A stretch of 64,000 nucleotides of DNA from Gillisia sp. Hel1_33_143 (GTDB lineage Bacteria; Bacteroidota; Bacteroidia; Flavobacteriales; Flavobacteriaceae). Positions 47,109-64,000 of this stretch are shown piece by piece. Below the pieces are notes generated by a model. It saw only the letters and a list, made by a program, of their open reading frames with translations, had not been told where the DNA came from and did no database searches. The translations under genes were made by a program, and so were the position numbers. Positions within the stretch are counted from its first letter, which is position 1. Each line of letters opens with the position of its first letter. The stretch is taken from assembly GCF_900104765.1 (NCBI RefSeq), contig NZ_LT629737.1:930001-994000 (forward strand), in the 5' to 3' direction.

Positions 47109-48395
47109 ATGAAAAACCAATCAACTTTAGGCACACCACAAGTCAGTGCGAAATCTGAAACTAATCGTTCCATTCTTATCATTGGAGCACTCTTCTTTAT
47201 CTTCGGATTTGTTACATGGCTAAATTCTGTACTAGTACCGTATTTGAAGATCGCCTGTGAACTTAATAACTTTCAATCCTACTTTGTTGTAAGTGCCTTC
47301 TATATCTCATATTTAGTAATGGCTCTGCCGTCTGCTAAGATCCTTAAACTTACAGGTTTTAAAAAAGGTATGTCTGTAGGATTACTAGTAATGGCAGTTG
47401 GGGCTTTAATTTTTGTTCCTGCAGCTTATACTAGAACCTATGGCTTATTTCTTTTGGGTCTTTTTGTGCTAGGAACCGGCTTAGCAATATTACAGACTGC
47501 TGCAAACCCTTACATTACTATTTTAGGCCCAATAGAAAGTGCTGCTAAGAGAATTAGTATTATGGGTATTTGCAATAAGATAGCAGGAACTCTAGCGCCT
47601 TTGGTGCTGGGAGCCATTGTTTTTAAAAATACCGAAACTTTAGTGGAAGAGTTAACTCTCATGAGCGTAGCAGAAAAGGCGCTTGTTTTGGATGAGCTTT
47701 CGGAAAGGGTAGTAGTACCATATCTTATTATGATGGGGGTTCTTATTTTACTGGCAGTTATGATCTATTTTTCTTCCTTACCAGAAGTAGATACAGATTC
47801 TGAAGATGAAGAATTGGCAAAAACCAATGTAAATAAAACCAGCATCTTTCAGTTTCCACATTTATTGCTAGGTACCCTTGCCATGTTCTTTTATGTAGGT
47901 GTGGAAGTGATAGCAGGAGATACCGTTATTAGTTATGCAGCTTCTCAGGGTATTCCGCTAATAGATGCTAAAGTCTTTACCTCGTATACTTTAGGAGCCA
48001 TGATCATTGGATATATTATAGGTATATCTACAATCCCAAAATATATTTCTCAAGAAAAAGCCTTAAGAATTTCTGCTATTGTAGGGATTATCTTCGGGTT
48101 AGGGGCCATCTTTTCAGGTGGGTTTATATCAGTACTATTTATCTCATTATTAGGATTAGGAAATGCTATGGTGTGGCCGGCTATTTGGCCAATGTCTATT
48201 GCAGGCTTAGGTAGATTCACCAAAATTGGATCTTCATTTCTAATTATGGCTATTGCAGGTGGTGCTATTTTACCTCCTTTATATGGATACCTGGCAGATA
48301 TTGTGAATCCTCAGAATGCCTATTGGATCGTAATTCCTTGTTATGCATTTATACTATTCTTTGCCAGTAAAGGATATAAGATAAGAAGTAACTGA
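47109..48395 (+). CDS. Sugar MFS transporter (FucP/NagP-like)
   Basis: A 428-residue inner-membrane permease with 12 helices of the FucP/GluP/NagP sugar:proton symporter group. Markers are FIFGFVTWLNSVLVPYLK in helix 1, QTAANPYITILGP in helix 4-5 and YVGVEVIAGDTVISYA in helix 7. In Bacteroidota and Shewanella such proteins carry GlcNAc or other hexoses. Its place directly before murQ suggests MurNAc and/or GlcNAc as substrate. It opens the plus-strand set of nine genes to 60489, 62 bases before murQ. Confidence 0.88.
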   Translation: MKNQSTLGTPQVSAKSETNRSILIIGALFFIFGFVTWLNSVLVPYLKIACELNNFQSYFVVSAFYISYLVMALPSAKILKLTGFKKGMSVGLLVMAVGALIFVPAAYTRTYGLFLLGLFVLGTGLAILQTAANPYITILGPIESAAKRISIMGICNKIAGTLAPLVLGAIVFKNTETLVEELTLMSVAEKALVLDELSERVVVPYLIMMGVLILLAVMIYFSSLPEVDTDSEDEELAKTNVNKTSIFQFPHLLLGTLAMFFYVGVEVIAGDTVISYAASQGIPLIDAKVFTSYTLGAMIIGYIIGISTIPKYISQEKALRISAIVGIIFGLGAIFSGGFISVLFISLLGLGNAMVWPAIWPMSIAGLGRFTKIGSSFLIMAIAGGAILPPLYGYLADIVNPQNAYWIVIPCYAFILFFASKGYKIRSN

Positions 48396-48457
48396 TCTAA
48401 TTATTAAATATTGAATTAGAGTAGCAAAGTGCATGCTATACTTAGACAAAAATTAAG

Positions 48458-49270
48458 ATGAATAAAAGAACCACAGAGCAAAGCTCACTATATAATGATC
48501 TGGAAAAGATGAATACGCGTCAGTTATTGACAAATATCAACAATGAAGATAAGAAGGTATCAGAAGCTATAGAAAAGGAGATTCCAAGTATAGAAAGATT
48601 GGTAGATGTTATAGTGGAAAAAATATCTAAACATAATGGGAGACTTTTTTATATAGGAGCAGGAACCAGTGGAAGGCTGGGGGTTTTAGATGCTTCAGAA
48701 TGTCCTCCAACTTTTGGAGTTTCAGATAATGTAATTATAGGATTGATAGCCGGTGGAGATGTTGCCTTGCGAAAGGCGGTTGAAAATGCCGAAGACAATA
48801 ATAATAAGGCTTGGGAAGACCTAAACGAATATAATATCAATAAAAACGATGTACTAATAGGTATAGCGGCCTCTGGTACTACACCCTATGTTATTGGAGG
48901 AATAGAAAGAGCCAGAGAAAACGGACTTATCACGGGATGTATAACCAATAATGCAGATTCTCCACTTGCCAATGCTTCAGAATTTCCAATAGAAGTAGTA
49001 GTAGGGCCGGAGTTTGTAACGGGTAGCACCAGAATGAAATCTGGTACAGCACAAAAATTGGTGCTGAATATGATCTCTACTTCAGTAATGATAAAATTAG
49101 GAAGGGTAAAAGGAAATAAAATGGTAGACATGCAACTATCTAATGCCAAATTAGTAGACCGCGGTATTAAGATGATCATGGAAGAGTTGGATGTAGATAA
49201 AGAGAAAGCTTCAGAATTATTAAAAGAATATAAAAATGTACGCTCGGCTATACACAATCATAGGGGGTAG
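48458..49270 (+). CDS. murQ: N-acetylmuramic acid 6-phosphate etherase
   Basis: Cleaves the lactyl ether of MurNAc-6-phosphate to give GlcNAc-6-phosphate and D-lactate, the committed step in MurNAc catabolism. The SIS domain holds YIGAGTSGRLGVLDASECPPTFG with catalytic Glu81, a second Glu near 112 (KAVENAED), and the MurQ/GckR signature GPEFVTGSTRMKSGTAQK. At 270 residues it is slightly shorter than the E. coli protein (298), at the C-terminus. It lies between a sugar permease and a SusC gene. A MurNAc kinase or phosphotransferase to supply the substrate is not identified in the window. Confidence 0.95.
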   Translation: MNKRTTEQSSLYNDLEKMNTRQLLTNINNEDKKVSEAIEKEIPSIERLVDVIVEKISKHNGRLFYIGAGTSGRLGVLDASECPPTFGVSDNVIIGLIAGGDVALRKAVENAEDNNNKAWEDLNEYNINKNDVLIGIAASGTTPYVIGGIERARENGLITGCITNNADSPLANASEFPIEVVVGPEFVTGSTRMKSGTAQKLVLNMISTSVMIKLGRVKGNKMVDMQLSNAKLVDRGIKMIMEELDVDKEKASELLKEYKNVRSAIHNHRG

Positions 49271-49338
49271 TTTGCTAAATATAAGATAGTTAAGAAGTTA
49301 AATAGAAACCAACAACGTTTATTAAATACATTCAAATT

Positions 49339-52300
49339 ATGGAAAAACGATTACTCTTAATTTTACTCTGCTTCATTGGCATGCAATCTTTTGCCCAGGA
49401 GCGTAGGGTTACAGGAACAGTAAAAGATGGTAACGGTTTACCTGTTGCAGGAGCATCTGTTTACATAAAGGATACAAATAATGGAGCCGTTACAGACATG
49501 GATGGAAATTTTGCTTTGAACGCTCCAGATAATATGGAAGCTATTCTGGTAATTTCGTCTTTAGGTTTTGATACTCAGGAAATCAAGCTACAAAATAAGT
49601 CCACATTTAATATTCAATTAAGCGAAAATTTAGAAGGATTAGATGAAGTTGTAGTAACCGCTTTAGGAATAAAGAGGGAGAAAAAAGCGCTTGGTTATGC
49701 CGTTACAGAAGTTAAAGGGGATGTAATTGCAGAAACACAGCGTGAAAATTTTGTAAATGGTCTGGCAGGAAGAGTTGCTGGGGTAGAAGTAAATAGTACT
49801 TCAGGACTTCCTGGCTCTTCATCTTCTATAGTAATTAGGGGAATAAGTTCCTTAAGTGGTAGTAACCAACCATTATTTGTAGTAGATGGACTTCCAATTA
49901 GTAACAATACTACTTCCACTGCAGTATTTGCATCTTCTGTTACTGGTAATGCTTTTGATAACAGAGGGGTAGATTTTACAAATAGAGCGGCAGATATCAA
50001 TCCTGAAGATATAGAATCTGTTACGATATTAAAAGGTCCTGAAGCTGCAGCATTATACGGTATAGAGGCTGCATCTGGAGCTATTGTAATTACTACTAAA
50101 CGAGGTAAAGCCGGAAAAACTCGTATAGACTATAGCAACAGTTTTAGAATAGATAGAATTATAGAGTATCCAGAAATTCAGCAAACTTATGATAGAGGTT
50201 CTAATGGATATACTAATGAAGGGAATGAAGAATTATATTATTTTGGAGAACCTTATCCTGAAGGCACTAAATTCTATGATAATGTTAAGGACTTCTTCCA
50301 AGAAGCTTTCACTCAAAGACACAACATCTCATTTTCTGGTGGAAGTGAAAAGACTCAATATAGAATTTCTGCTTCTCACACAGATGCAGAAGGTTTTGTT
50401 CCAACCACCGGCTTAGAAAAATTAAATATTTCTTCTGCAATTACAGCAGAGTTCAATGACTATCTTTCTGCAGATGTAACGTTTGATTATACCAGATCAG
50501 ATAATGATCAAACCTTTAGAGGTTCTGGTGGCCCATTATTAGATTTGCTGCTTTGGCCTTCTACAGATGATGCTAGTAACTATCTTACTCCAGGTGGTGA
50601 TAGAAGAGACTATGCAGACTATTCTAACGCGGTAGAGAATCCATATTTCAATGTTAACAAAAATATCTTCAACTCATTAACAGATAGATATAAGTTAAAT
50701 ACTCAACTTACAGCTACTCCTCTAAGCTGGCTAAAATTTGTAGGTCAGATAGGGGTAGATTATTTTACTACGAATAATACAATTGTAAGACATCCAGAAT
50801 CTAATACGGGTAAAGATTTTAATGGAATATTTGATCAGGCTTTAGTAACAACTAGAAATTTAACTTTTCAATATTATACACAGATCACTCCTCCAAAACT
50901 TTTTGATGATAAGATTACAACAGATATAAAAATTGGTAGTGCGGTTTATGATTATAACACATTTAGTGCTGCAGCAGGCGGGCAGGATTTTCAAGCTCCA
51001 GATTTATGGTCTATAAATAATACAGACCTATCTACTCATAGAGCTTTTAACAATTTAACAGAACGTAGATTGGTTGGCGCATTTGCAAGTTTAAATGCTA
51101 GTTATGATAATATGCTCTTTCTAACATTAACTGGAAGAAATGACTGGAGCTCAACGCTGCCTAAAAAGAATAACTCCTTCTTTTATCCATCTGCAGGATT
51201 GAGTTTTATATTTACAGAACTTGATGCTTTTAAAGGATTTAAAAATGTACTTACCTATGGTAAATTAAGAGCTTCTGTAGCCGAAGTTGGAAAAGATGCG
51301 AGACCTTATAGCATACGTCCTTTTTATACTAATGCTTTAACTACAGGTGGAGGTTTTCGATATGGGTTTACCGGACCAAGTTTAGATCTAAAGCCAGAGA
51401 TTACAACTTCTTACGAATATGGTCTTGAACTTAAATTCTTTAAAAACAGATTGGGTATAGATGCTACCTATTTTAATAAGACCTCTAAAGATCAAATCGT
51501 TCAAAATCTAAGACTTAGTTATGCTACAGGATTTGTACTTATGACGTTTAATGCCGGTGAGATTCAAAATGAAGGTATTGAACTTCAATTAAATGCTACC
51601 CCAGTTCAAACCGAAAACTTCTCTTGGGATATCTTAGCTAACTATACTAAGAACTGGAGTGAATTGGTGAGTTTACCTGGTGATGTATCAGAATTCTATA
51701 ATTCAGATACCTGGTTGTATGGAAATGTGCGTCTAGGATCTAGAGTAGGTGGTTCACTTACTACATTTACAGGGTATGATTTCGAAAGAAATGACGATGG
51801 GGAAGTATTAATTAATCCTTCTAACGGGTTACCAATTCTAGATACAAGCGAATGGATTGTTGTTGGAGATAGAAATCCAGACTTTTCAGTTGGACTTACC
51901 AATACCCTAAGATATAAGAACTTCTCTCTTAATTTCTTATTAGATTTTAGAGTAGGTGGAGATGTCTACAACGCTACAGAGCATTACCTAACAACAAGAG
52001 GATTAAGTAAGAGAACTTTAGATAGAGAAACCCCAAGAATTGTTTCTGGTGTGCTTAAGGATGGAAATGAGAACGTTAACCCAACAGAAAATAATATTCC
52101 TATAGATCTATATCGTAACTCTAGTTACTGGAGTAGTATATATCCACATCAAAGCTTTATAGAAAAGGATATAAACTGGGTGCGCTTAAGAGATGTAACT
52201 TTTAGTTATAATTTCTCTTCAGACATTTTAAGTAGCACTAAATTTTTAAGAACTGCTAGTGTTTTTGTTACAGGTACAGATCTGTTCTTGTTAACTAATT

Positions 52301-52428
52301 ATTCAGGATTAGATCCAGTTGCAAGTGGAAACTCTGCTGCAGTAGGAGGCGCAGGTGGAGCAGGAATAGACTATGGTAATTTCCCATTACCAAGAGGATT
52401 GAATATAGGAATGAGAGTTGGATTTTAA
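49339..52428 (+). CDS. SusC/RagA-family TonB-linked outer membrane transporter
   Basis: A 1029-residue outer-membrane transporter that takes up large ligands with its SusD partner. In order: a signal peptide ending SFAQ (about 19), a carboxypeptidase-regulatory-like domain (about 23-98), the TonB-box region LDEVVVTALGIKR at about 100-112, a plug domain to about 250, and a 22-strand barrel ending in Phe (NIGMRVGF). There is no STN domain, so an anti-sigma system is not indicated. It starts 69 bases after murQ and ten before SusD. Context suggests a peptidoglycan-derived ligand. Confidence 0.95.
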   Translation: MEKRLLLILLCFIGMQSFAQERRVTGTVKDGNGLPVAGASVYIKDTNNGAVTDMDGNFALNAPDNMEAILVISSLGFDTQEIKLQNKSTFNIQLSENLEGLDEVVVTALGIKREKKALGYAVTEVKGDVIAETQRENFVNGLAGRVAGVEVNSTSGLPGSSSSIVIRGISSLSGSNQPLFVVDGLPISNNTTSTAVFASSVTGNAFDNRGVDFTNRAADINPEDIESVTILKGPEAAALYGIEAASGAIVITTKRGKAGKTRIDYSNSFRIDRIIEYPEIQQTYDRGSNGYTNEGNEELYYFGEPYPEGTKFYDNVKDFFQEAFTQRHNISFSGGSEKTQYRISASHTDAEGFVPTTGLEKLNISSAITAEFNDYLSADVTFDYTRSDNDQTFRGSGGPLLDLLLWPSTDDASNYLTPGGDRRDYADYSNAVENPYFNVNKNIFNSLTDRYKLNTQLTATPLSWLKFVGQIGVDYFTTNNTIVRHPESNTGKDFNGIFDQALVTTRNLTFQYYTQITPPKLFDDKITTDIKIGSAVYDYNTFSAAAGGQDFQAPDLWSINNTDLSTHRAFNNLTERRLVGAFASLNASYDNMLFLTLTGRNDWSSTLPKKNNSFFYPSAGLSFIFTELDAFKGFKNVLTYGKLRASVAEVGKDARPYSIRPFYTNALTTGGGFRYGFTGPSLDLKPEITTSYEYGLELKFFKNRLGIDATYFNKTSKDQIVQNLRLSYATGFVLMTFNAGEIQNEGIELQLNATPVQTENFSWDILANYTKNWSELVSLPGDVSEFYNSDTWLYGNVRLGSRVGGSLTTFTGYDFERNDDGEVLINPSNGLPILDTSEWIVVGDRNPDFSVGLTNTLRYKNFSLNFLLDFRVGGDVYNATEHYLTTRGLSKRTLDRETPRIVSGVLKDGNENVNPTENNIPIDLYRNSSYWSSIYPHQSFIEKDINWVRLRDVTFSYNFSSDILSSTKFLRTASVFVTGTDLFLLTNYSGLDPVASGNSAAVGGAGGAGIDYGNFPLPRGLNIGMRVGF

Positions 52429-52438: not shown

Positions 52439-54055
52439 ATGAAAAAAATTATATACACATGTTTAATGATTGCCGGAACACTTACTTTTTCCGGCTGTGA
52501 GGATTATATAGATGTAAATACCAACCCTAACGGTCCGGATGCACTTTTACAGCCAGAATTATTCTTGCCGCAAATTCAGTCTGAACTAGCAGTTGCAGTT
52601 CAATGGGATGGTAGATTTACAGGTTTTTATACCCAAAATTGGGCATATTCTTCTGGAGAATCTTATTCTTTGAATTTGCACAACAACCCATTGTCAGATT
52701 CTTATGCCCAATTATGGAGAGCTGTTTATTGGAGTATGGGTTACAATCTATCTGATATGATAGAAAGTGGGATGAATAGTGAGAAATATGATTTCGTTGG
52801 AGTAGGCTATATTTTAAGAGCTTACGGTTGGCAAATGTTAACAGATTATCATGGACCTGTAATAGTAACTGAAGCATTCAATTCAAGTCAACGTGTTTTC
52901 AATTATGATGAGCAGGAAGTGGTTTATGAGGAAATACAAAGATTGTTAGCCTTAGGAATAGAAAATCTAGAAAGAACAGATGGTTTAAGTCCGCAAGATT
53001 CTGGTCTAAGCGAAGCAGATCTAATCTATAACGGAGATAGAGATAAATGGAAAAGATTTGCTTATGGTTTACTTGCAATAAATGCTCACAGATTAACTAA
53101 TAAAAGTTCTTATAATGCAGATGAGGTTATTGGATATGTAGATCAGGCATTGGCAGGGAATCAAGATGATGCTACAATTCGTTTTGAGGGAACTGTAAGC
53201 TCTAATACTAATTTCTTTGGACCACTTAGAGGAAATATTGGTAGATACCGTCAAACCAAATTTATGGTAGGACTTTTAGACGGAACGAATCCAGAATTAA
53301 CAGATCCAGACCTTATAGGTGCAGATCCATTATTGGAAGATTCAGAAGAACATTTAAAAGATCCAAGAATTACAGCAATGATGGCGCCATCTCCAGATGG
53401 TAAATATAGAGGGATATCTCCAGTGGTAGGTATTAATGAATGGTCTCCAGAAGAATCTGATTTAGTTCCAAAGAACTTTTGGAATGAGGAAGGTTATACG
53501 GGCACATCTCCATCTCCTCAAATATATTTCTTTAATAACGATGCTAGATTTCCTTTGATGACTTATGCAGAACTTCAGTTTATTAAGTCTGAGGCTGCTT
53601 TTATCTCTGGGAATAAAGATGTAGCATTAAATGCGTATAAAAAGGGGGTAAGTTCTCATATGGATTTTGCAAGACAATATGCTCCAGACCCCTCAATTTT
53701 TGATACTAGGCGTGAAATTTACCTTAGTAGTGAAGAACTATATCCATCTTCTGCGGGAGAGCTAACATTATCTAAGATCATGTTACAAAAATACATAGCT
53801 ACTTGGGGATGGGGATTCTTCGAAACCTGGTCTGATATGAGAAGGTACCATTATGATATGGATACAGCAGAACCTGTTTACAAAGGTTTTGAACTTCCAG
53901 ACCCATTATACATAACCAATAATGAGAACCCTGCCTACCGTGCAAGACCTAGATTCAATTCAGAATATATGTGGAACAAAGAGGCTTTAGAAGTACTTGG
54001 TGCTTTTGAAGAAGACTATCACACCTACGAAACTTGGTTTAGTAAACCAGAATAA
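52439..54055 (+). CDS. SusD/RagB-family surface lipoprotein
   Basis: Ligand-binding lid for the adjacent SusC-type transporter, on the cell surface. The 538-residue protein has a lipobox FSGC (about Cys19), then DYIDVNTNPNGPD, typical of the SusD-like-2 subgroup, and the TPR-type helices expected of the family (for example PLMTYAELQFIKSEAAFISGNKDVALNAYKKG, the conserved C-terminal region). It is ten bases after SusC and 11 bases before the next lipoprotein gene. Confidence 0.93.
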   Translation: MKKIIYTCLMIAGTLTFSGCEDYIDVNTNPNGPDALLQPELFLPQIQSELAVAVQWDGRFTGFYTQNWAYSSGESYSLNLHNNPLSDSYAQLWRAVYWSMGYNLSDMIESGMNSEKYDFVGVGYILRAYGWQMLTDYHGPVIVTEAFNSSQRVFNYDEQEVVYEEIQRLLALGIENLERTDGLSPQDSGLSEADLIYNGDRDKWKRFAYGLLAINAHRLTNKSSYNADEVIGYVDQALAGNQDDATIRFEGTVSSNTNFFGPLRGNIGRYRQTKFMVGLLDGTNPELTDPDLIGADPLLEDSEEHLKDPRITAMMAPSPDGKYRGISPVVGINEWSPEESDLVPKNFWNEEGYTGTSPSPQIYFFNNDARFPLMTYAELQFIKSEAAFISGNKDVALNAYKKGVSSHMDFARQYAPDPSIFDTRREIYLSSEELYPSSAGELTLSKIMLQKYIATWGWGFFETWSDMRRYHYDMDTAEPVYKGFELPDPLYITNNENPAYRARPRFNSEYMWNKEALEVLGAFEEDYHTYETWFSKPE

Positions 54056-54065: not shown

Positions 54066-54857
54066 ATGATAAAGACATTCAATAAATTATTGTTATTTTT
54101 CACAGTAAGTTTATTTTTTACTTCTTGTGATGAAAATGCTATTCCTGAGCTTACAGAGCCAGTATCTAATAATGCTACGTATTTAAAATTCTTTTTTCAT
54201 GTAGAGGATGCACCCAGCCTAAATATATATTTTGATGATCAAAAAGTAAGTGCGGTGAGTTCTTCAAATACAGATGAAGAGAAGGGTAATTCCTACGGAT
54301 CTGTATTTCCTTCTAATGCTTATGCTTTAATTCCTTCAGGTAATTTTAGTGTGAATGCAAAAGATTTAGATGGAAATATCGTAGCCTCTACAAATGCTTC
54401 CTTTGCAGATGATAAAAACTATTCTGCATACCTTGTTGGAACTACAGATAGCTATGAGATCTTTGTAATGGAGGATAACCTTCCTCCTTTAGATAGAGTA
54501 AAAATATACTGGAGATTTGTAAATACAATGGCAAATATGCCATTTGCTGTAGATGTTTTTGCAATTAAAGATGCTATTGTGGCCACAGAAGATTCTCCTG
54601 CGCAAGATACTCAGATAATAAGTTTAGGAAGCGGGTTAGGCTTTAAGCAAGCCGGAGATTATAAAGAACTAGAATCAGGTAACTATACATTTAAAGTATT
54701 TGAAGCTGGAACAGAATACGATGTGGAAACATCAGAACCTTATATTCAAAATACAGTGAATGTGGGTAGTAAGGGAAGAGTTTATTCTACTCAAATTAGA
54801 GGAACGTATACTGAAAATCCAAGCTCAAAAAATATAGATTACTGGAGAGAGCGCTAA
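54066..54857 (+). CDS. DUF4397-like surface lipoprotein linked to SusCD
   Basis: A 263-residue lipoprotein with signal peptide and lipobox FTSC (about Cys19). The mature part has beta-rich segments ATYLKFFFHVEDAPSLNIYFDDQKV and ALIPSGNFSVNAKDLDGNIVAST, resembling DUF4397 Ig-like domains, then a second similar half starting VKIYWRFVNTMANMPFAVDVF. I take the ATG at 54066, which gives the signal peptide; earlier in-frame starts lie within SusD. By position it is the SusE/SusF-like auxiliary binding protein of the system, but the sequence does not match those families. Ligand unknown. Confidence 0.7.
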   Translation: MIKTFNKLLLFFTVSLFFTSCDENAIPELTEPVSNNATYLKFFFHVEDAPSLNIYFDDQKVSAVSSSNTDEEKGNSYGSVFPSNAYALIPSGNFSVNAKDLDGNIVASTNASFADDKNYSAYLVGTTDSYEIFVMEDNLPPLDRVKIYWRFVNTMANMPFAVDVFAIKDAIVATEDSPAQDTQIISLGSGLGFKQAGDYKELESGNYTFKVFEAGTEYDVETSEPYIQNTVNVGSKGRVYSTQIRGTYTENPSSKNIDYWRER

Positions 54858-54876
54858 TTGATATTTGATAATTAAT

Positions 54877-54913
54877 AAAAGAAAGAGACACGAATTGTGG
54901 CTCTTTCTTTTTT
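54877..54913 (+). terminator. Terminator after the SusCD-lipoprotein genes
   Basis: AAAAGAAAGAG pairs with CTCTTTCTTTT and is followed by more T. It separates the SusC/SusD/lipoprotein part from the glycan-hydrolase part of the locus, so the second part may have its own promoter or depend on read-through. Confidence 0.75.
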
Positions 54914-54977
54914 AAAAGTAATTCACGATTTGTTGAATTTAAATTTTAAAATTTGTTTCATACTTATCAATTAATTT

Positions 54978-56609
54978 ATGTCGTTAAAAATTAGATCCAT
55001 TTTGTTGATATTGCTGTGTGCAGTAACACTTAACTCCTGTAAAACACCTAAACCTGTTGTTTCAAAACCTAGGCCTCCAAAAAAGGAGTTACCTCAAAGA
55101 GTTGAGAAGCCAACACTACCTTCTACAAAGATTCCTAAACCGGTTGAAATTGAAGAGAAGGTTCCACCAGTTCAAATATTTAAAAGTAGTCCCTATGTGA
55201 TGCGCGAATTTCGTGCAGCCTGGATTGCTACAGTGGCAAATATTAACTGGCCTAGTAGATCTGGTTTGTCTACAAAGCAACAGCAAGAAGAGGCTATAAA
55301 ATTATTAGACTTTCTTAAAGATCATAATTATAACGCAGTGATCTTTCAAGCCAGACCGCAGGCAGATGCTTTATACCAAAGTGATTTAGAGCCATGGTCT
55401 TATTTTCTATCTGGAGAAGTTGGAAAAGCTCCAGACCCATATTATGATCCTTTAGATTTTTGGATCAAGTCTGCACATGAGAGAGGAATGGAATTACATG
55501 TTTGGTTAAATCCATATCGTGCACATCATTCTACAGGAGGACCGATAGCACCAAAATCTATGGTGAAAATGCATCCAGAATTTATGGTGAGCTTAAAAAA
55601 TGGAATGTGGTGGATGGATCCATCTAAACAAGCAACGCAAGATCATTCTGCAGCCGTGGTTATGGATATAGTTAAGAGATATGATGTAGACGGAATTCAT
55701 TTTGATGATTATTTCTATCCGTATGCTTCCTACAATAAAGGTGCAGATTTTCCAGATTCAGAAGTATATCAAGCATATATAAAATCTGGAGGAAAGCTAT
55801 CTAAGCCAGACTGGCGTAGAGAAGGTGTAAATAATTTTGTGGAACGTATCTATAAAGAAATTAAGGCAGAAAAACCTCAGGTTAAATTTGGGATTAGTCC
55901 GTTTGGGATCTGGAGACCGGGCTACCCAAAATCAATTTCTGGGATGGACCAGTACAACGAGTTGTATGCAGATGCTAAATTGTGGCTAAATAAAGGGTGG
56001 TTAGATTATTTTACACCTCAGCTATATTGGAAGATCAATCAGACCGCTCAAAGTTTCCCTGTTTTATTAGGATGGTGGGAAGGTGAGAATTCTCAAGATC
56101 GCCATTTATGGCCTGGAATTAATTTAGATTTTGGGGGAGATGCCGCTAATGTTGATGAAACTATCAATCAGATTATGTTAACTAGAGGAATGATAGCAGA
56201 AAGTAAAGGTACCGTGCATTGGAGTATCGCTCCGTTGTTGAAATATCCCAATCTCTCAAAAGCCTTGGTAGACGGACCGTATAAAAAACAAGCCCTTGTA
56301 CCTGCAAGTCCGTGGTTGGATGAAGTATTACCAGAAGCCCCTACAGTTTCAGCAAAAATTGAAGGAAATAGCGTGAAGATCTCCTGGTCTCATTCTGCAA
56401 TTACAGATGTATCAAACTGGGTGGTCTTCTATAAATATGGAAATAATTGGGATTATAAGATCTTGGACAGAACTGAAAATGCTACAGATTTCACTCATTA
56501 TTTAAAGGAAAAGGAGAAAAAAGATCCGTTGACTTTTATAGGGGTTACTGCCGTAGATAGAACCGGAAATCAGAGCACTTTCAATGAAATTAAAATTGAA
56601 GCTAAATAG
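54978..56609 (+). CDS. GHL10-family glycoside hydrolase lipoprotein (DigH/YngK-like)
   Basis: A 543-residue lipoprotein (lipobox LNSC, about Cys21). A proline/lysine-rich linker to about 65 precedes a TIM-barrel GHL10 (DUF187) domain with EFRAAWIATVANINWPS, VIFQARPQADALYQS, LHVWLNPYRAHH and DVDGIHFDDYFYPY. A fibronectin-III-like domain closes the C-terminus (about 450-540). The E. coli homologue DigH (formerly YddW) cleaves peptide-free peptidoglycan glycan, so I infer the same substrate here; this fits the murQ, amidase and epimerase neighbours. The gene follows a terminator by 64 bases. Confidence 0.88.
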   Translation: MSLKIRSILLILLCAVTLNSCKTPKPVVSKPRPPKKELPQRVEKPTLPSTKIPKPVEIEEKVPPVQIFKSSPYVMREFRAAWIATVANINWPSRSGLSTKQQQEEAIKLLDFLKDHNYNAVIFQARPQADALYQSDLEPWSYFLSGEVGKAPDPYYDPLDFWIKSAHERGMELHVWLNPYRAHHSTGGPIAPKSMVKMHPEFMVSLKNGMWWMDPSKQATQDHSAAVVMDIVKRYDVDGIHFDDYFYPYASYNKGADFPDSEVYQAYIKSGGKLSKPDWRREGVNNFVERIYKEIKAEKPQVKFGISPFGIWRPGYPKSISGMDQYNELYADAKLWLNKGWLDYFTPQLYWKINQTAQSFPVLLGWWEGENSQDRHLWPGINLDFGGDAANVDETINQIMLTRGMIAESKGTVHWSIAPLLKYPNLSKALVDGPYKKQALVPASPWLDEVLPEAPTVSAKIEGNSVKISWSHSAITDVSNWVVFYKYGNNWDYKILDRTENATDFTHYLKEKEKKDPLTFIGVTAVDRTGNQSTFNEIKIEAK

Positions 56610-56628: not shown

Positions 56629-58077
56629 ATGACTCCATTACTGGTTTTTAGTGTGATCGCCGCCTATTTTGTCCTATTGTTAGTAATAAGTCACTTTACC
56701 TCGCAAAAGGCAGATAATACTACGTTTTTTACAGCCAACAGAAGATCTCCTTGGTTTTTAGTAGCCTACGGAATGGTTGGTGCTTCTCTTTCTGGAGTCA
56801 CCTTTATCTCGGTTCCTGGAGAAGTTGGAAATTCTAATTGGACGTATCTACAATTTGTAATGGGAAATATGGTGGGTTATGCCGTAATTGCATTTGTATT
56901 GATCCCGCTTTTTTATCGACTTCAACTAGTTTCTATTTATGAATACCTAAGAGATAGGTTTGGGAAGAATTCCTATCTAGCAGGCGCTTCCTTCTTTTTG
57001 ATCTCTCAAACCATTGGAGCTTCCTTTAGACTATTCTTGGCAGCAGTAGTACTACAGATTGCGTTTTTTGATGCCTTCGGAATTCCTTTTTTCGTGACGG
57101 TGCTTACTACCATTTTACTTATTTGGATCTATACATTTAGAGGAGGAATTAAAACCATTGTTTGGACAGATACACTTCAAACCACGTTTTTACTAGCGGC
57201 GGTAGTGATTAGTATCATTATGATCATTAATCATATGAATTTGAATTTTGGAGAAGTGACTAGCCTGGTGTCAAAAAGTAAGATGTCTACCATATTTGAT
57301 TGGGATTGGAGATCTAATCGCAATTTCTTTAAAACCTTCTTAGCCGGAATCTTTATTACCATCGCTATGAATGGATTGGATCAAAATGTAATGCAGAAAA
57401 ACCTGACATGTAAGAGTAAGGGAGATGCTCAAAAGAACATTTTTTGGTTCTCCATCGTTTTCTTTTTTTCCACTATGTTGTTCTTAGCGTTAGGAGTATT
57501 GTTGTATCAATACGCCATAGATCAGAATATCTCGATTCCAGAAAGAACAGATGATCTATACCCATTATTGGCATTAAATTATTTTGGAACTTTTGCCGGT
57601 ATTGTATTTTTATTAGGAATTATTGCAGCAGCATTTTCAAGTGCAGATTCAGCATTAACAGCGCTTACAACTTCTTTTTGTGTAGATATTTTAGATCTTT
57701 CCAAACGAAAGAGCAATCAAAAGAAAACACGATTTTTAGTACACATAGGCTTCTCTTTACTGATGTTCTTTGTGATCATCATTTTTAATGCATTAAATGA
57801 TACCAGCGTGGTAAGTGCCGTTTTTAAAGTGGCAGGATTCACCTATGGACCTTTATTGGGTTTATTTGCATTCGGATTATTAACAAAGCGTGGAGTAAAA
57901 GATAAATGGGTGCCCTTAGTGTGCATTCTCTCTCCAATGCTATCTTTTATTCTAGATCAAAATTCTGCAAGCTGGTTTTATGGTTATAAATTCGGATTTG
58001 AAATATTATTGGTAAATGCTGCCATAACATGTTTAGGCCTAGCATTTTTATATAAAAGACAACCTGGATTTCTATAA
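56629..58077 (+). CDS. Sodium:solute symporter (SSS family)
   Basis: A 482-residue transporter with about 13 helices. Markers are the sodium-site region YGMVGASLSGVTFISVPGEVGNSNWTYLQF and GIIAAAFSSADSALTALTTSF. The substrate is not readable from sequence. It sits 19 bases after the GHL10 gene and 21 before the dipeptide epimerase, so a wall-derived compound such as an amino sugar or a murein dipeptide breakdown product is likely. The locus thus encodes two inner-membrane importers of different families. Confidence 0.88.
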   Translation: MTPLLVFSVIAAYFVLLLVISHFTSQKADNTTFFTANRRSPWFLVAYGMVGASLSGVTFISVPGEVGNSNWTYLQFVMGNMVGYAVIAFVLIPLFYRLQLVSIYEYLRDRFGKNSYLAGASFFLISQTIGASFRLFLAAVVLQIAFFDAFGIPFFVTVLTTILLIWIYTFRGGIKTIVWTDTLQTTFLLAAVVISIIMIINHMNLNFGEVTSLVSKSKMSTIFDWDWRSNRNFFKTFLAGIFITIAMNGLDQNVMQKNLTCKSKGDAQKNIFWFSIVFFFSTMLFLALGVLLYQYAIDQNISIPERTDDLYPLLALNYFGTFAGIVFLLGIIAAAFSSADSALTALTTSFCVDILDLSKRKSNQKKTRFLVHIGFSLLMFFVIIIFNALNDTSVVSAVFKVAGFTYGPLLGLFAFGLLTKRGVKDKWVPLVCILSPMLSFILDQNSASWFYGYKFGFEILLVNAAITCLGLAFLYKRQPGFL

Positions 58078-58098: not shown

Positions 58099-59118
58099 AT
58101 GAAAATTGAATTTTACACTTTTAATTTAGCGCTTAAAAATACTTTTACCATTACTCACGGATCCAGAGATTTTCAGGAAACACTGATTGTGGCTTTAACC
58201 GATGGAGACTTTACCGGGTATGGGGAAGCAGCTGCAACCGTTTATTATGGGGTTTCTACCAAAGCGATGATAGCTTCTATAAAATCTGTAGAAAATATCA
58301 TTTCAGAAAACATCCATTTAAAACCAGAAGAACTTTGGGAACTCACATTTCCGCATTTAAAAGAAAACCCTTTTGCACAATGCGCGCTAGATATTGCAAT
58401 GCACGATCTTCATGGAAAACGAAATAAACTTCCATTATATAAAATGTGGGGTTTAAGTCTTGACAATATTCCGCTTACCAATTATACCATCGGAATAGAT
58501 TCTGTTGAAAAAATGACAGAGAAGATCAAAGAATTTCCGTGGCCATTATATAAAATCAAATTAGGAACTGAGGATGATGTGCAAATCATTAAAGAACTTA
58601 GAAAACATACAGATTCTGTATTTAGGGTAGATGCAAACGGCGCTTGGACGGCAGAGCAAACCATCAAAAACTCTAAGCTACTAAAAGATCTAAATGTGGA
58701 ATTTTTGGAGCAACCCTTGAATCCGAAAGACCTGGATGGAATGGGGGAAGTTCACAAGAATTCTGTATTGCCTATTATAGCAGATGAAAGTTGTATTGTT
58801 GAAGCCGATGTGGCAAAATGTAAAGATTACTTTCATGGCGTTAATATTAAACTTACCAAATGTGCAGGGCTTACACCGGCAAGAAGAATGATCGCGGAAG
58901 CCAAGCGTTTAAATATGAAAGTGATGGTGGGTTGTATGACCGAATCTACTGTGGGAATTTCAGCAATTGCTCAATTATTACCTTTGTTAGATTATGTAGA
59001 TATGGATGGCGCACTTTTATTAAAATCTGATATTGCAGACGGAGTAAAAGTATATGATAAAAAAGTGCATTTTCCGAAGCGAAATGGAACGGGAGCTAAA
59101 TTATTGATTTCAGGATAA
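58099..59118 (+). CDS. L-Ala-D/L-Glu (dipeptide) epimerase
   Basis: Enolase-superfamily enzyme that converts L-Ala-D-Glu from murein to L-Ala-L-Glu, which ordinary peptidases can then cut. The 339-residue protein has the complete active site: K152 and K154 (YKIKLG), metal ligands D178 (VDANGAW), E204 (FLEQPL) and D229 (IADES), K251 (NIKLTK), and the DMDG motif at 301-304 that binds the substrate amino group in Ala-Glu epimerases. It is cytoplasmic and lies before a YkfC-like endopeptidase gene, repeating the ykfB-ykfC pairing of Bacillus. Confidence 0.92.
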   Translation: MKIEFYTFNLALKNTFTITHGSRDFQETLIVALTDGDFTGYGEAAATVYYGVSTKAMIASIKSVENIISENIHLKPEELWELTFPHLKENPFAQCALDIAMHDLHGKRNKLPLYKMWGLSLDNIPLTNYTIGIDSVEKMTEKIKEFPWPLYKIKLGTEDDVQIIKELRKHTDSVFRVDANGAWTAEQTIKNSKLLKDLNVEFLEQPLNPKDLDGMGEVHKNSVLPIIADESCIVEADVAKCKDYFHGVNIKLTKCAGLTPARRMIAEAKRLNMKVMVGCMTESTVGISAIAQLLPLLDYVDMDGALLLKSDIADGVKVYDKKVHFPKRNGTGAKLLISG

Positions 59119-59259: not shown

Positions 59260-60489
59260 ATGAACGTGTTTAAAAAGATCAATTTATTAGCCTTAGTTGG
59301 GCTTTTAACATTTGCTTCTTGTAATAAGAAAGCAGAAGAAAAAGAAGACAATAAAGCGCAAGCTTATATTAAAGATGTAAAACAGGAATACGCTCCAGAT
59401 AAAAGGGTGGCATTATTTGATGTAGAAGCAACGCAAGCTAACGATGCTTATATTCTTAAAGGGGAATCTAATTTGCCGGATGCTGTAAGTGTATTAAAAG
59501 AAAAATTAAATGCTGAAGGAATTTCTTTTACAGATAGCATTCAATTGCTTCCTACCACCGATTTAGAAGGAAAGACCAACGGACTTATAAAAATTTCTGT
59601 AGCCAACCTTAGAGGTGAAGGAAAACATTCCGCAGAACTTGTTACCCAAGCAACTATGGGAACTCCTGTGAAAATATTGAAAAATAATGAGGGTTGGTCG
59701 TTAATTCAAACTCCAGACGGTTATATTTCTTGGGTAGACTACGGGGGAGTAATTGGATTAACAGATGCTGAATTTGAAGATTGGAAAGCAGCAGATAAGA
59801 TCATCTATCTAAATCCTTATGGAAAATCTTTTGAAAAGGCAGACTTAAAAAGTCAGCCGGTTTCAGATTTGGTTGCTGGAGACATTTTAGAGGTTCTAAG
59901 CGACCAAAACGGATTTTATGAGGTGAAGTATCCTGATGGCCAAAAAGCCTTTGTAGATAAGGTAGAAGCTATGGGATATTCAGACTGGGTAGCTTCAGTA
60001 GATCAATCTGGAGAAGATCTGGTAGCTACGGCTAAAAAGTTGATGGGATTGCCTTATTTATGGGGTGGAACTTCGCCTAAAGGAGTTGACTGTAGCGGAT
60101 TCACTAAAACTGTTTATTTCTTGAATGGTATGGTGATACCAAGAGACGCTTCACAACAAGTGCACACCGGAAAACTAATAGATTCTACTAAGAATTTTGA
60201 AAATCTTGTTCCCGGAGATCTTTTATTCTTCGGAAGAAAGGCAACAGATTCTACCGGTGAAAGAATTATACATGTTGGAATGTGGATTGGAGATCAAAAA
60301 TTCATTCATTCTATGGGGAATGTACACATTAGTACTATGGATACCACCAGTGCAGATTTTGATGAATACAATTACAACCGATATTTAAGAACAAAACGTA
60401 TCAATAATCAGGAAGGAAAAGGATTGCTATACCTAGCTAAAAAAGATATTTTCATGGCTAAGAAAGATTCTACATCGGTAAAAGAATAA
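59260..60489 (+). CDS. NlpC/P60 endopeptidase lipoprotein with SH3b domains (YkfC-like)
   Basis: Cell-wall peptidase that likely cuts the gamma-D-Glu to diamino acid bond of muropeptides. It has a lipobox FASC (Cys21), two SH3b domains (about 115-165 and 195-240) and an NlpC/P60 domain with Cys278 (VDCSGF), His338 (HVGMWIG) and His350 (HSMGN), the catalytic triad. This domain order matches Bacillus YkfC, which acts on released stem peptides. As a lipoprotein it would work in the periplasm or at the outer membrane, upstream of the cytoplasmic epimerase. Confidence 0.9.
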   Translation: MNVFKKINLLALVGLLTFASCNKKAEEKEDNKAQAYIKDVKQEYAPDKRVALFDVEATQANDAYILKGESNLPDAVSVLKEKLNAEGISFTDSIQLLPTTDLEGKTNGLIKISVANLRGEGKHSAELVTQATMGTPVKILKNNEGWSLIQTPDGYISWVDYGGVIGLTDAEFEDWKAADKIIYLNPYGKSFEKADLKSQPVSDLVAGDILEVLSDQNGFYEVKYPDGQKAFVDKVEAMGYSDWVASVDQSGEDLVATAKKLMGLPYLWGGTSPKGVDCSGFTKTVYFLNGMVIPRDASQQVHTGKLIDSTKNFENLVPGDLLFFGRKATDSTGERIIHVGMWIGDQKFIHSMGNVHISTMDTTSADFDEYNYNRYLRTKRINNQEGKGLLYLAKKDIFMAKKDSTSVKE

Positions 60490-60508
60490 CCTTTAAAATG
60501 TTATAAAT

Positions 60509-60542: not shown

Positions 60543-60559
60543 ATGCTGAAAAAGATACT

Positions 60560-61501
60560 TTATAGATACTTCTTATATAGATTATTAAGCACCTTCAAAT
60601 CATGATTTGTTAAAGTAGAATTTACTTCAGTCTGAATAAAATGAAGTTTAAAGGCCTTGATTGCTGCCGGCATATCGCTTACATCATATCCAATAATCTT
60701 TATAGCGATCTTAGGAGTAACATCTAATAATGGAGCAGCTTTTGGCGCTTTTGCATTTGCAACAATTACAGAATCATTTACTTCGGTCTTGATCTCCTGA
60801 GGGATTTCTGTGGTTAGCGTATTGCCTTTATCTAAAGTCTTAATTTCCTCTTCCGGGATTTCATCATACCATAATCCGTATCCTTCTTTTGCTAATTCTT
60901 TCCACGGAAAAGTTTTATTCGGATCTTGTTTTCTGGTTGGAGCGATATCAGAATGGCCAATAAAATTAGCTGTCGGGATCTTATATTTCGCTTTAAGATC
61001 TTTCAATAATTCCAGTAGGCTTTGAATTTGTAATGGTGAAAATTCGTCACTTCCATTATTGTCTAATTCAATTCCTATAGAAGATGAATTTAGATCGGTA
61101 TTAGAACCCCACTTTCCGGCACCACCATGCCATGCACGATAAAGATCATTCAGCATATGATAGATCTCTCCATCCTCTCCAATTACATAATGCGCACTAA
61201 CTTGAGTTCTCTCTAACGTGAAGGTTTTTAAAGTTTGCCCTACCGAATCTTGCGCGGTATGATGAATAACCACAATATTTGGTTTTCTAAGGTTGAAATT
61301 GGTAGTACCTACCCAATCTTCCGCATACTTTAAACTACTTGCAGTTCCAGGATTTGGCGGAGGTAAAACTTCTAACTCTTTTGTGAGTTCTTTGGTGTGT
61401 TTTTTATGATCTCGGTTAGTTGAAGCATACGGATTGCTGGCACATGAAACCATCATGTAAGCTGCAGCAACTATCGTGAATGCTGAATTTATTCTTTTCA
61501 T
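60560..61501 (-). CDS. N-acetylmuramoyl-L-alanine amidase (amidase_2), lipoprotein
   Basis: Cuts the bond between MurNAc and L-Ala, freeing the stem peptide. The 313-residue protein has a lipobox VSC (Cys20) and a full amidase_2 domain: zinc His80 (VVIHHTAQD), SIGIELDNNG with Glu145, His183 (FIGHSDIAP) and Asp193 (RKQDP). The C-terminal 100 residues are unassigned. As a lipoprotein it resembles E. coli AmiD in placement. It lies 13 bases after the NagB-LmbE gene on the same strand and is convergent with the other half of the locus. Confidence 0.92.
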   Translation of the reverse strand: MKRINSAFTIVAAAYMMVSCASNPYASTNRDHKKHTKELTKELEVLPPPNPGTASSLKYAEDWVGTTNFNLRKPNIVVIHHTAQDSVGQTLKTFTLERTQVSAHYVIGEDGEIYHMLNDLYRAWHGGAGKWGSNTDLNSSSIGIELDNNGSDEFSPLQIQSLLELLKDLKAKYKIPTANFIGHSDIAPTRKQDPNKTFPWKELAKEGYGLWYDEIPEEEIKTLDKGNTLTTEIPQEIKTEVNDSVIVANAKAPKAAPLLDVTPKIAIKIIGYDVSDMPAAIKAFKLHFIQTEVNSTLTNHDLKVLNNLYKKYL

Positions 61502-61514
61502 TTACAGTTTAATA

Positions 61515-63434
61515 TTAAAATTTCCAGCGGACAAAAGCTTCCATTGCTTCATAATCTGCCATTCCTAATTTGTGATAATTAATTGCGGTTTCTCCGTTTC
61601 TTTCCTGAGCACGAACCCAAAATTCTCGTTCATCGTCACCCGGAAAAACAGGATGATCTTTTTGAGACTGGTGCTGAAAAATGGCTTTTCTTTTACGATC
61701 GACTTCTTGAGGAGAAAGTGGTACTGCCATTTCTATTTCATGCGTTTCAAATTCTAACCATGCACCTCTGTACATCCAAAGCCAACAATCTTTTGTCCAA
61801 GCTTCGGTTTTTCTAAGTCGGTTCATGGCCTCGATGATAATTCTGAAGCAAACAATATGAGTTCCATGCGGATCTGCAAAATCGCCTGCCGCAAAGATCT
61901 GATGAGGTTTTATCTTCTGTAAAAGCTCCATGGTCAACAAAACATCTTTTTCTGTAACCGGATTTTTCACCGTTTTTCCCGTTTCGTAAAACGGTAAGGC
62001 CATAAAATGAATGTTCTTATCTGCTAACCCGGCAAATCGGGCTCCGGCAAAAGCTTCAGATTTTCTTATAAAACCTTTTACTTCTCTAATCTCTGGCAAG
62101 TCGATCTCATTAGGTTGTTTCGATTTTAAGAAACTTCGCATCTCTTCATAAATAGCTTCCAGTCTTTTGGTATCATCGCCCATACTTTTATTAAAGTCGA
62201 TAGCAAATTCAACATATCTTAAGACATCGGTATCCCATACAGCGGTATTTCCAGAAGTTTGATAAGCTACATGTACATCATGACCTTGATCTACCAATCT
62301 TATAAAGGTTCCGCCCATAGAGATCACATCGTCATCTGGATGAGGAGAGAAAATGATTGATCTTTTATGTGCCGGTTCCGATCTTTCCGGGCGTTGAGTT
62401 TCATCTGCATTGGGTTTTCCACCCGGCCAGCCTGTAATGCTGTGTTGAAGATTATTAAATACTTCAATATTGATGTTGTAGGCAGGACCTTTTTCGGTGG
62501 CTAATTGTGCCATCCCGTTATTGTTGTAATCTTCGTCGGTAAGTTTTAAGATAGGTTTTCCAATTTCTGAAGATAACCAGATCACCGCTTTTTTAATTTG
62601 CTGATCGTCCCATAAACAATCTTTCACCAACCATGGCGTGTTGAATCTTGTTAATTCTGAAGCCGCTTCAGTATCTAAAATAAACTCCACTTTATCTGAA
62701 TGTTGCAGGTAGGTTGCAGGTACATTTCCTGAAATTTCTCCTTCTACAGCCTTTTTAATAATACTGGCTTTTTTCTTGCTCCAAGCCATTAAAATGATCT
62801 CTCTGGCTTTGAAAATAGTACCAATTCCCATGGTAATGGCTTTTGTAGGTACATTTTCTTTACCGCCAAAATCTCTTGAGGCATCTCTTCTGGTAAGATC
62901 GTCTAAAGTAACCAGTCTCGTTCCGGAATTGGGAGCAGATCCAGGTTCATTAAAACCAATATGTCCTGTTCTACCAATTCCTAAAATTTGAAGATCAAGG
63001 CCTCCTAATTCTTCGATTTTATTTTCATAATCCAGACAAAAAGCAGCAATATCTTCTTTCTTTAAAGTACCATCAGGAATATGAATATTCTCTTTTAAAA
63101 TATCGATATGATCAAAAAGATTTTCGTTCATGAACGTTACATAGCTTTGTGGCGCTGTAGGTTGCATGGGAAAATATTCATCTAGATTGAAAGTGATCAC
63201 ATTCTTAAAACTTAAACCTTCTTCCTTGTGCATTCTAACCAATTCCTGATAAACCTCCACTGGAGTAGCTCCGGTAGCAAGACCTAACACTGTAGGAATA
63301 CCCTCCTTTTGCTTTTTAATGATAAGGTTGGAAATTCTTTTAGCAACACTTTTAGATGCTAAATGTTCATCTGGAAAAACACTTACCGGTAATTTTTCAT
63401 ACCGTGTTTCTTCAAGGAGATTTAGTCTGGCCAT
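61515..63434 (-). CDS. nagB: Glucosamine-6-phosphate deaminase fused to a LmbE/PIG-L domain
   Basis: The N-terminal NagB domain (about 15-280) converts glucosamine-6-phosphate to fructose-6-phosphate and ammonia; the C-terminal LmbE domain (about 358-639) has the zinc motif SPHPDDD (363-369) and DPHGTH typical of N-deacetylases. Such a fusion could deacetylate GlcNAc-6-phosphate or a relative and deaminate the product in one protein, but this is inference. D85 matches E. coli Asp72; H158 and E163 match His143 and Glu148; the position of catalytic Asp141 is Thr156. It is flanked by an amidase and a ROK gene. Confidence 0.92.
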   Translation of the reverse strand: MARLNLLEETRYEKLPVSVFPDEHLASKSVAKRISNLIIKKQKEGIPTVLGLATGATPVEVYQELVRMHKEEGLSFKNVITFNLDEYFPMQPTAPQSYVTFMNENLFDHIDILKENIHIPDGTLKKEDIAAFCLDYENKIEELGGLDLQILGIGRTGHIGFNEPGSAPNSGTRLVTLDDLTRRDASRDFGGKENVPTKAITMGIGTIFKAREIILMAWSKKKASIIKKAVEGEISGNVPATYLQHSDKVEFILDTEAASELTRFNTPWLVKDCLWDDQQIKKAVIWLSSEIGKPILKLTDEDYNNNGMAQLATEKGPAYNINIEVFNNLQHSITGWPGGKPNADETQRPERSEPAHKRSIIFSPHPDDDVISMGGTFIRLVDQGHDVHVAYQTSGNTAVWDTDVLRYVEFAIDFNKSMGDDTKRLEAIYEEMRSFLKSKQPNEIDLPEIREVKGFIRKSEAFAGARFAGLADKNIHFMALPFYETGKTVKNPVTEKDVLLTMELLQKIKPHQIFAAGDFADPHGTHIVCFRIIIEAMNRLRKTEAWTKDCWLWMYRGAWLEFETHEIEMAVPLSPQEVDRKRKAIFQHQSQKDHPVFPGDDEREFWVRAQERNGETAINYHKLGMADYEAMEAFVRWKF

Positions 63435-63476
63435 AATAAAGTTTTACAATAAGGTTGTTGATTATATGTAACTTAT

Positions 63477-64000
63477 TTAGTTAAGTTGCGCTTTGGCTAC
63501 AGCTATCTGTTGTTTAAAGATATGATCCATAATGGCTACGGTGGCACCTAACAAACTTGAGTTCTTTCCTAGTTTGGAAAGCTCAATTTCGGTGCGTTCT
63601 TTTAGCTGGATCATACAATAAGTATTTATAGATTGCTGTATTGGAGTTGTTATAAACTGTTTAGCTTCGGCTATTTTACCTTCCAGGATAATAAGTTCCG
63701 GGTTAAAGATCTGTATTAGAATAGCTATTCCTTTTCCTAGACTTATACCAATATCAGAAAGCACATTAATTGCAAATTGATCTCCGCGATTGGCAGCTTC
63801 AATAATAATAGAGGGTTCTAAATTTTCGAGTTCATTGCTAACCAAATCTTTTAAAATAGAATGTTGTCCAGCCTCAATTCCATCTTTAGCTTTTTTCACC
63901 AATGCAATTCCGGAGGCCACGGTTTCTAAGCACCCTCTTTTCCCGCAATGGCATAACGCTCCGTCTTCTACTAAAGGAATATGACCGAATTCTCCTGCAA
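63477..64000 (-). CDS. ROK family protein (5' end cut by window)
   Basis: The frame is open to the window edge; the visible part has the ROK signature GEFGHIPLVEDGALCHCGKRGCLE with the zinc-binding cysteines, then SLGKGIAILIQIFNPELIILEGKI. The missing N-terminus would show whether it is a sugar kinase (NagK/MurNAc kinase-like, DxGxT motif) or a repressor of the NagC/Mlc type with a helix-turn-helix. Either fits beside nagB. The true start is outside; an internal ATG at 63920 is not the start, because the conserved residues lie before it. Confidence 0.85.
   Translation of the reverse strand, partial: AGEFGHIPLVEDGALCHCGKRGCLETVASGIALVKKAKDGIEAGQHSILKDLVSNELENLEPSIIIEAANRGDQFAINVLSDIGISLGKGIAILIQIFNPELIILEGKIAEAKQFITTPIQQSINTYCMIQLKERTEIELSKLGKNSSLLGATVAIMDHIFKQQIAVAKAQLN

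Follow-up and report, generated by a model that had tools for sequence, protein, structure and literature searches.

SusC/SusD (SusCD) importers are usually tied to plant or algal sugars, and to our knowledge no Gram-negative outer-membrane importer for peptidoglycan fragments has been characterized. What, then, would a SusCD pair import when it lies inside an operon for peptidoglycan recycling? This arrangement is found in Gillisia sp. Hel1_33_143, whose genome is one contig of 3.48 Mb; the 64,000-nucleotide stretch of it analyzed here (G000:C1:930001–994000) is referred to as the window. The initial annotation had read the locus as a probable peptidoglycan-fragment scavenging system built on the SusCD pair, and all the genes that it named are present where it placed them, as judged by open reading frames (ORFs) and family profiles (Table 1). 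The analysis below suggests that the locus is probably an operon for peptidoglycan recycling into which SusCD is plugged as an outer-membrane importer that would take up soluble peptidoglycan fragments for dismantling in the periplasm.

Linkage of the SusCD pair to peptidoglycan genes

Of 149 genomes sampled from the family, 4 (the own one included) encode an orthologue of the window's SusD at an identity of at least 78%. In a collection of 84,980 species, 22 orthologous loci were found by two exact peptide patterns, which miss more divergent members. The loci cover seven genera in two orders (Gillisia 2, Gelidibacter 5, Salegentibacter 1, Zunongwangia 2, a Leeuwenhoekiella metagenome-assembled genome 1, Pontibacter 10, and Cesiribacter 1); 10 of the 22 come from Pontibacter and are hence not independent. 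Neighborhoods were scored with a core list of seven families (MurQ, NamZ, Amidase_2, GHL10, epimerase, NlpC/P60, and AnmK), which was fixed after the first maps had been seen. At least one core gene lies within 10 kb at all 22 orthologous loci versus 3 of 38 other SusD loci from six genomes, indicating that the clustering exceeds chance, and at least two are present at 18 of the 22 versus 2 of the 38. The ORF-based count gave 22 and 16 for the orthologues and 3 and 2 for the controls. This linkage, from which we infer the substrate and its transport, supports the scavenging reading.

The controls were derived from 40 SusD-like_2 places above the cut-off in the six genomes. The 4 orthologues and 3 further places (two sharing the neighborhood of a listed one and one inside the Gillisia lutea cluster) were removed, and 5 SusD_RagB places of the own genome were added, a sixth being already among the 40. 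Eleven SusD-like_2 rows under the cut-off were left out, one of which is the same place as a SusD_RagB control, and the controls L143 and L146 overlap. The three control matches are the MurQ–GHL10 cluster of G100, a genome of another genus, with another SusCD pair (L150), a separate Gelidibacter salicanalis locus with MurQ and NamZ (L143), and L149, where the pair adjoins an epimerase gene.

Among the 22 loci, GHL10 was found within 10 kb at 20, Amidase_2 at 16, NamZ at 11 (one match, L083, is partial), and NlpC/P60 at 4, and DUF4397 follows SusD at 21 by ORF call. The initial annotation had looked to relatives for a link of murQ and the epimerase to this pair; MurQ is present at 15 loci (the matches in L075 and L085 are truncated at the edge of the locus) and the epimerase at 4. 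The link thus holds at most loci for MurQ, but neither gene is adjacent in the five Gelidibacter loci.

Nine of the ten Pontibacter loci share the order NamZ–SusC–SusD–(DUF4397)–GHL10–...–Amidase_2–MetPQQ–MurQ, and in P. mangrovi (L074), neither NamZ nor MurQ was matched within 10 kb. Identity to the window's GHL10 is 34 to 38% for the Pontibacter proteins (40–42% in P. mangrovi), and identity to its SusC is 72 to 74%. Because GHL10 is far less conserved than SusC, different GHL10 genes appear to have been recruited, and the association is not one inherited block. The Salegentibacter cluster carries an additional fused Amidase_2–NamZ.

These loci bear on two rival explanations. SusCD might import N-acetylglucosamine (GlcNAc) or chitin oligosaccharides, with MurQ and the amidase as merely co-located housekeeping recycling genes. 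GlcNAc functions are suggested by the NagP-like, NagX-like, NagB–LmbE, and NagC-like ROK proteins, and glycoside hydrolase (GH) family GH20 is encoded in the clusters of Gillisia lutea, G. mitskevichiae, Salegentibacter, and Zunongwangia atlantica, as well as before SusC in five Gelidibacter loci. However, no GH18 or GH19 chitinase was found among the annotated cluster genes scanned (47109 to 69174). The ten Pontibacter loci have no NagP, NagB–LmbE, or GH20 match within 10 kb, whereas the amidase and GHL10 are present in all ten and NamZ and MurQ in nine; we know of no role of these four families in chitin use. This explanation is considered unlikely. Slightly less probable again is RagAB-like import of the peptide part only (e.g. 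stem peptides), in which case the sugar genes would be used for internal recycling. The dipeptidyl-peptidase VI-like enzyme and the epimerase in the operon would fit it, as would the sister-lineage SusCD pairs beside epimerase genes in G013 and G119, but in nine of the ten Pontibacter loci SusCD is accompanied by NamZ, GHL10, and MurQ, and neither an epimerase nor NlpC/P60 was matched within 10 kb.

MurQ itself is near universal in the family (142 of 149 genomes), and mostly none of the profiled genes lies beside it, which marks the linkage with SusCD as a special state rather than the default. SusC was found within 10 kb of MurQ at 11 of 97 census loci, the window included; this is a lower bound from a biased sample, as the census covers 97 of 147 MurQ places, mostly the best-scoring ones, many of them cut by contig ends. 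The possibility that the window encodes a second, dedicated MurQ was rejected, since its MurQ is the sole TIGR00274-type match in the genome at E ≤ 1e-40.

SusC lineages and the slot after MurQ

In the SusC tree, the window's lineage, termed type I (23 sequences), forms a clade with a support of 1.0, which is joined by the G119 pair beside NamZ (1.0) and by the G100 type (0.92). Peptidoglycan genes were in view at the loci of 27 of the 28 members of this joint clade. Type II pairs were found in five genomes of five genera, at loci with SSS, MurQ, GH3, and NamZ (NagX in three).

Within the genus, the type I SusD is present in 4 of 16 genomes (4 of the 11 of good quality) and MurQ in 14 (all 11 of good quality). 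The 10 kb around MurQ were compared in six genus-mates without this SusD. In G157, G151, and G152, the genes run NagP–MurQ–GHL10–(SSS)–epimerase–NlpC/P60 with the slot empty, SSS being present in G157 only; the SSS, epimerase, and NlpC/P60 proteins of G157 are 92, 91, and 86% identical to those of the window. In G155, MurQ is followed first by a SusC and a SusD with 69 and 71% identity to the type II pair, and next by a further SusC that shares 71% identity with the G100 type across the visible part, as the stretch ends there. G159 and G150 are rearranged and have no SusC in the 10 kb around MurQ. Beyond the genus, the operon of G007 has no SusCD, and in G100 the slot is occupied by a different pair (39/29% identity), with an intervening DeoR gene. 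Pairs of both the type I and the G100 lineage are encoded in Gillisia lutea and in Zunongwangia pacifica.

The empty slot in three genus-mates and in G007 shows that SusCD is a plug-in to a recycling operon that exists without it. The statement that the locus is built on the pair has to be reversed.

An empty slot also means that the pair is dispensable for the operon, as expected if it were a passenger for an unrelated glycan inserted there by chance. GH9 proteins, encoded alongside the pair in Salegentibacter, Gillisia lutea, and nine of ten Pontibacter loci, could be taken in the same sense. Nevertheless, each SusC lineage of the slot (type I, G100 type, and type II) adjoins peptidoglycan genes in other genomes or arrangements, including both lineages in the slot of G155, and a chance passenger is very unlikely. 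With the slot after MurQ empty or holding SusCD of at least three lineages, we tentatively suggest a family of peptidoglycan-dedicated TonB-dependent importers that act as interchangeable cassettes, each perhaps tuned to different fragments. Swapping the importer might then switch a cell between internal recycling and feeding on the walls of other bacteria; we regard this reading as a whole as possible, at slightly less than an even chance.

Enzymes of the cluster

The closest solved relatives of the Amidase_2, NlpC/P60, and DigH-like proteins are peptidoglycan enzymes, in agreement with the initial annotation. Amidase_2 matched AmiD best (2bh7, E 4e-27), and the NlpC/P60 protein matched 3npf (E 6e-82, dipeptidyl-peptidase VI) and 3pvq (E 2e-78). 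For GHL10, the glycan-active enzyme within the SusCD operon (GH20 and NamZ are found in sister clusters), the sole solved relative at E ≤ 0.001 was Cwp19 (5oq2, E 8e-71); DigH of Escherichia coli presumably also belongs to GHL10. Cwp19 is described as a lytic transglycosylase (PMC6016235) and DigH as a denuded-glycan hydrolase (PMC12288456). The GHL10 lipoprotein is accordingly predicted to cleave peptidoglycan glycan strands in a DigH/Cwp19-like manner.

For the predicted L-Ala-D/L-Glu epimerase, the best solved match, 3iji (E 7e-60), was deposited under the name muconate cycloisomerase, although we take it to be a Bacteroides dipeptide epimerase, and the next, 3jva (E 1e-38), is deposited as Dipeptide Epimerase. 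A C-terminal DxD motif marks dipeptide epimerases of the enolase superfamily, and DMDG of the protein is aligned to DLDG. The protein is a candidate for acting on L-Ala-D/L-Glu. Epimerase genes next to a BioF-like aminotransferase (named by eye) lie near SusCD pairs in G013 and G119 (L149:3470-5513 and L055:78-2119). A polysaccharide utilization locus (PUL) of a Urechidicola symbiont likewise lists bioF and an epimerase (PMC10199937).

The AlphaFold model of the DUF4397 lipoprotein (predicted local distance difference test [pLDDT] 80.4) consists mostly of beta strands, with Ig-like sandwiches by its matches. These matches (PepT1/PepT2 structures and extracellular domains, template modeling score on the query mostly ~0.5) were not used to assign a function.

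Proposed pathway of fragment uptake and use

We propose the following pathway. SusD and the DUF4397 lipoprotein would capture soluble peptidoglycan fragments on the cell surface for TonB-powered import by SusC. In the periplasm, as far as family membership predicts activity, the AmiD-like amidase would remove the peptides, GHL10 and a GH3 protein encoded just outside the window would cut the glycan, and the dipeptidyl-peptidase VI-like enzyme would release L-Ala-D-Glu. GlcNAc, N-acetylmuramic acid (MurNAc), or the dipeptide would then be taken in by two permeases: the NagP-like one may carry GlcNAc across the inner membrane, and the SSS symporter, whose genes adjoin or lie near murQ in several other loci, is a candidate importer of MurNAc or the dipeptide. 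MurNAc would be converted to MurNAc-6-P by a MurNAc-kinase-related protein encoded elsewhere in the genome and by MurQ to GlcNAc-6-P, which NagB–LmbE would feed into glycolysis. The epimerase would yield L-Ala-L-Glu, and the ROK protein may serve as the regulator.

The remaining components were sought in the whole genome. AnmK (G000:1427334), NamZ, and a BadF-family kinase (G000:3357000) are all encoded outside the cluster, and no other cluster gene was found in the 20 kb around NamZ or the 20 kb around AnmK. The best solved match of the kinase is PG1100 (1.6e-49), of unstated function, followed by chains named ATPase (2.8e-48) and putative novel MurNAc kinase (8.4e-48); N-acetylglucosamine kinases follow at 1.9e-38. 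The AmpG model TIGR00901 had no match at E ≤ 0.001 in the genome, while it matched 5 of 14 control genomes, including those of E. coli and Caulobacter. MurNAc, GlcNAc, and L-Ala-D-Glu would therefore cross the inner membrane separately. No NagA was found above the cut-off in the genome (best 30.8 bits versus 225.65), so that the LmbE half of NagB–LmbE may deacetylate GlcNAc-6-P and the fusion may replace NagA. NagA is also under the cut-off in G111, G007, G100, G013, and G113 (best 29–38 bits across these and the own genome), and G031 and G119 are near it.

Several observations weigh against import of peptidoglycan fragments by SusCD. The five Gelidibacter loci have only GH20 and GHL10, with an amidase in two, and no MurQ or epimerase nearby, and the Leeuwenhoekiella and Cesiribacter loci are without GHL10. 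The one exception in the joint SusC clade (L151:9248-13882) is a G100-type SusCD pair with a DeoR regulator and no peptidoglycan gene within 10 kb. Type II SusC stands apart in the tree, and its nearest relative (L144) is without any of the seven core genes. Scores lie under the equivalog cut-offs for the epimerase (PRK15129, 143.6 bits versus 343; DgcA, 217.9 versus 400), NagP, NagX, and NagC, as well as for the GH3 protein against the NagZ model. The AlphaFold model of SusD (pLDDT 51.7) is too poor for a binding-site reading, and the regions upstream of nagP and the ROK gene share no operator, only AT-rich words. Lastly, none of the lipoprotein enzymes in the window has an acidic export signal right after the Cys, as judged by eye and not by a localization program. 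As no cluster hydrolase is clearly surface-exposed, only fragments that are already soluble would be usable, and solid sacculi are an unlikely substrate. Own turnover products and foreign debris are both compatible with the data as the source.

Comparison with known systems

AmpG-type peptidoglycan recycling in Proteobacteria employs an AmiD-like amidase, GH3, AnmK, and MurQ. All four are found in the Gillisia genome studied here, which differs in having no AmpG match, a GH3 protein with a signal peptide (by eye), and an added SusCD. As in Bacteroidota PULs, SusC, SusD, an extra lipoprotein, and glycan-cleaving enzymes are combined in one operon. PULs are usually regulated by hybrid two-component systems or extracytoplasmic function sigma factors, whereas ROK or DeoR regulators accompany the present clusters, the neighbors are peptidoglycan enzymes, and there is no obvious surface endo-glycanase.

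The nearest precedent is the PUL of the Urechidicola symbiont of Idas mussels (PMC10199937), which, in the text available, combines SusCD pairs with murQ, nagB, a sodium co-transporter, an L-Ala-D/L-Glu epimerase, ampD, and GH3/10/171. Its authors assign most of the genes to murein metabolism and leave the substrate open, calling it glycan degradation. AmpG, DacA, GH18, and DeoR are listed there, unlike in the window, NagP and ROK are absent from that list, and the SusCD arrangement is another one. In Tannerella forsythia (PMC5790795), murTKQ combines MurQ with a MurNAc importer of the sodium-symporter superfamily, and a MurK-like kinase occurs in the Gillisia genome; in contrast to murTKQ, this kinase lies outside the cluster, and SusCD is not mentioned for murTKQ in the text available.

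A murein-type PUL in a mussel symbiont is thus already known. No tested SusCD for peptidoglycan was found in the portions of literature searched (including PMC7670621, PMC11658791, PMC6987092, PMC10877868, PMC12131861, PMC11573768, and PMC11382707; subscription papers fell mostly outside the scope). Within that literature, the slot with interchangeable importers, the distribution over two orders in which NamZ and GHL10 were recruited, and a version that has no AmpG match appear to be new. The findings suggest that SusCD importers may also collect cell-wall debris. If so, the bacterial cell wall would become a named PUL substrate, and many Bacteroidota could be scored from sequence as cell-wall-debris feeders with the SusC clade as a marker. 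The empty or swapped slots of sister species make the role of the importer directly testable.

Layout of the locus and accompanying genes

Table 1. Features of the SusCD-containing recycling cluster in the window
Feature	Position	Strand	Basis
FucP/GluP-class major facilitator superfamily permease, NagP-like	47109..48395	+	TIGR01272 319.8 bits (cut-off 202.6); NagP equivalog 405 bits, under cut-off 625
MurQ	48458..49270	+	TIGR00274 320.6 bits (cut-off 302)
SusC, TonB-dependent outer-membrane transporter, type I	49339..52428	+	TIGR04056 673 bits (cut-off 368); TIGR04057 above cut-off; tree
SusD-like lipoprotein (SusD-like_2), type I	52439..54055	+	PF12771 136.7 bits (cut-off 27)
DUF4397 lipoprotein	54069..54857	+	PF14344 above cut-off
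Terminator-like hairpin with U-run	54872..54915 (approx.)	+	Fold -15.7 kcal/mol, z -4.66
GHL10 lipoprotein	54978..56609	+	PF02638 213 bits (cut-off 27.9)
SSS sodium:solute symporter	56629..58077	+	PF00474 above cut-off
Enolase-superfamily protein, dipeptide-epimerase-like	58099..59118	+	Solved-structure matches 3iji, 3jva; under equivalog cut-offs
SH3-NlpC/P60 lipoprotein, dipeptidyl-peptidase VI-like	59260..60489	+	Solved relatives 3npf, 3pvq
Amidase_2 lipoprotein, AmiD-like	60560..61501	-	PF01510 116 bits; solved relative 2bh7
NagB-LmbE fusion (glucosamine-6-P deaminase and LmbE deacetylase domain)	61515..63434	-	NF002557 1047 bits
ROK regulator, NagC-like	63477..64000, cut by window end; whole gene to 64748	-	PF00480 above cut-off

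The nine plus-strand genes from the NagP-like permease to SH3-NlpC/P60 are separated by 10 to 141 bp, which is consistent with an operon. SusC and SusD, both above their family cut-offs, adjoin with a gap of 10 bp, and Cys20 of SusD is invariant across 23 sequences. The hairpin with a U-run 3' of DUF4397 suggests that SusC–SusD–DUF4397 may be a transcription unit of its own. A generic promoter and terminator scan was not above shuffles, and this hairpin is absent from its list. A hairpin of -12 kcal/mol or lower follows DUF4397 in 7 of 21 relatives and none does in 8, according to a crude script that considered even stems only and missed the window's own best hairpin; the hairpin is claimed for the window locus only.

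Beyond the window, the cluster continues for ~5 kb (locus L014; up to 69174 in window numbering). The whole ROK protein has 423 amino acids (NagC model 203.9 bits, under the cut-off of 650) and is followed on the plus strand by a NagX-like protein and a 993-amino acid fusion of GH3 and a beta-lactamase-family domain. The latter domain is PBP4B-like (L014:6193-9174, equal to 66193-69174 in window numbering).

GH9 is mostly a cellulase family, and its members adjoin NamZ, MurQ, or amidase genes in several loci (L143:1049-3559, minus strand; L074, L076–L079, and L081–L084; L072:15551-17362; L046:11653-12999). A separate PdaA-like polysaccharide deacetylase accompanies GH9 in nine of ten Pontibacter loci, and the two domains are fused in Gelidibacter. 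Deacetylation may possibly be followed by exo-glucosaminidase action of GH9 on peptidoglycan. GH9 glucosaminidases are reported from Vibrionaceae (PMC6096475). Among solved structures, endoglucanases come closest to the Salegentibacter GH9, and the glucosaminidase assignment was kept only as a lead.

A calcineurin-like phosphoesterase fused to a PQQ/BamB-like propeller is encoded at 10 of the 22 loci, all from Pontibacter, and also in Gillisia lutea (L046:7449-9287, L078:17702-19588). Elsewhere in the window, two cation/proton antiporters lie in tandem upstream of LepA (40693-44749), and related antiporter genes also precede LepA in G007.

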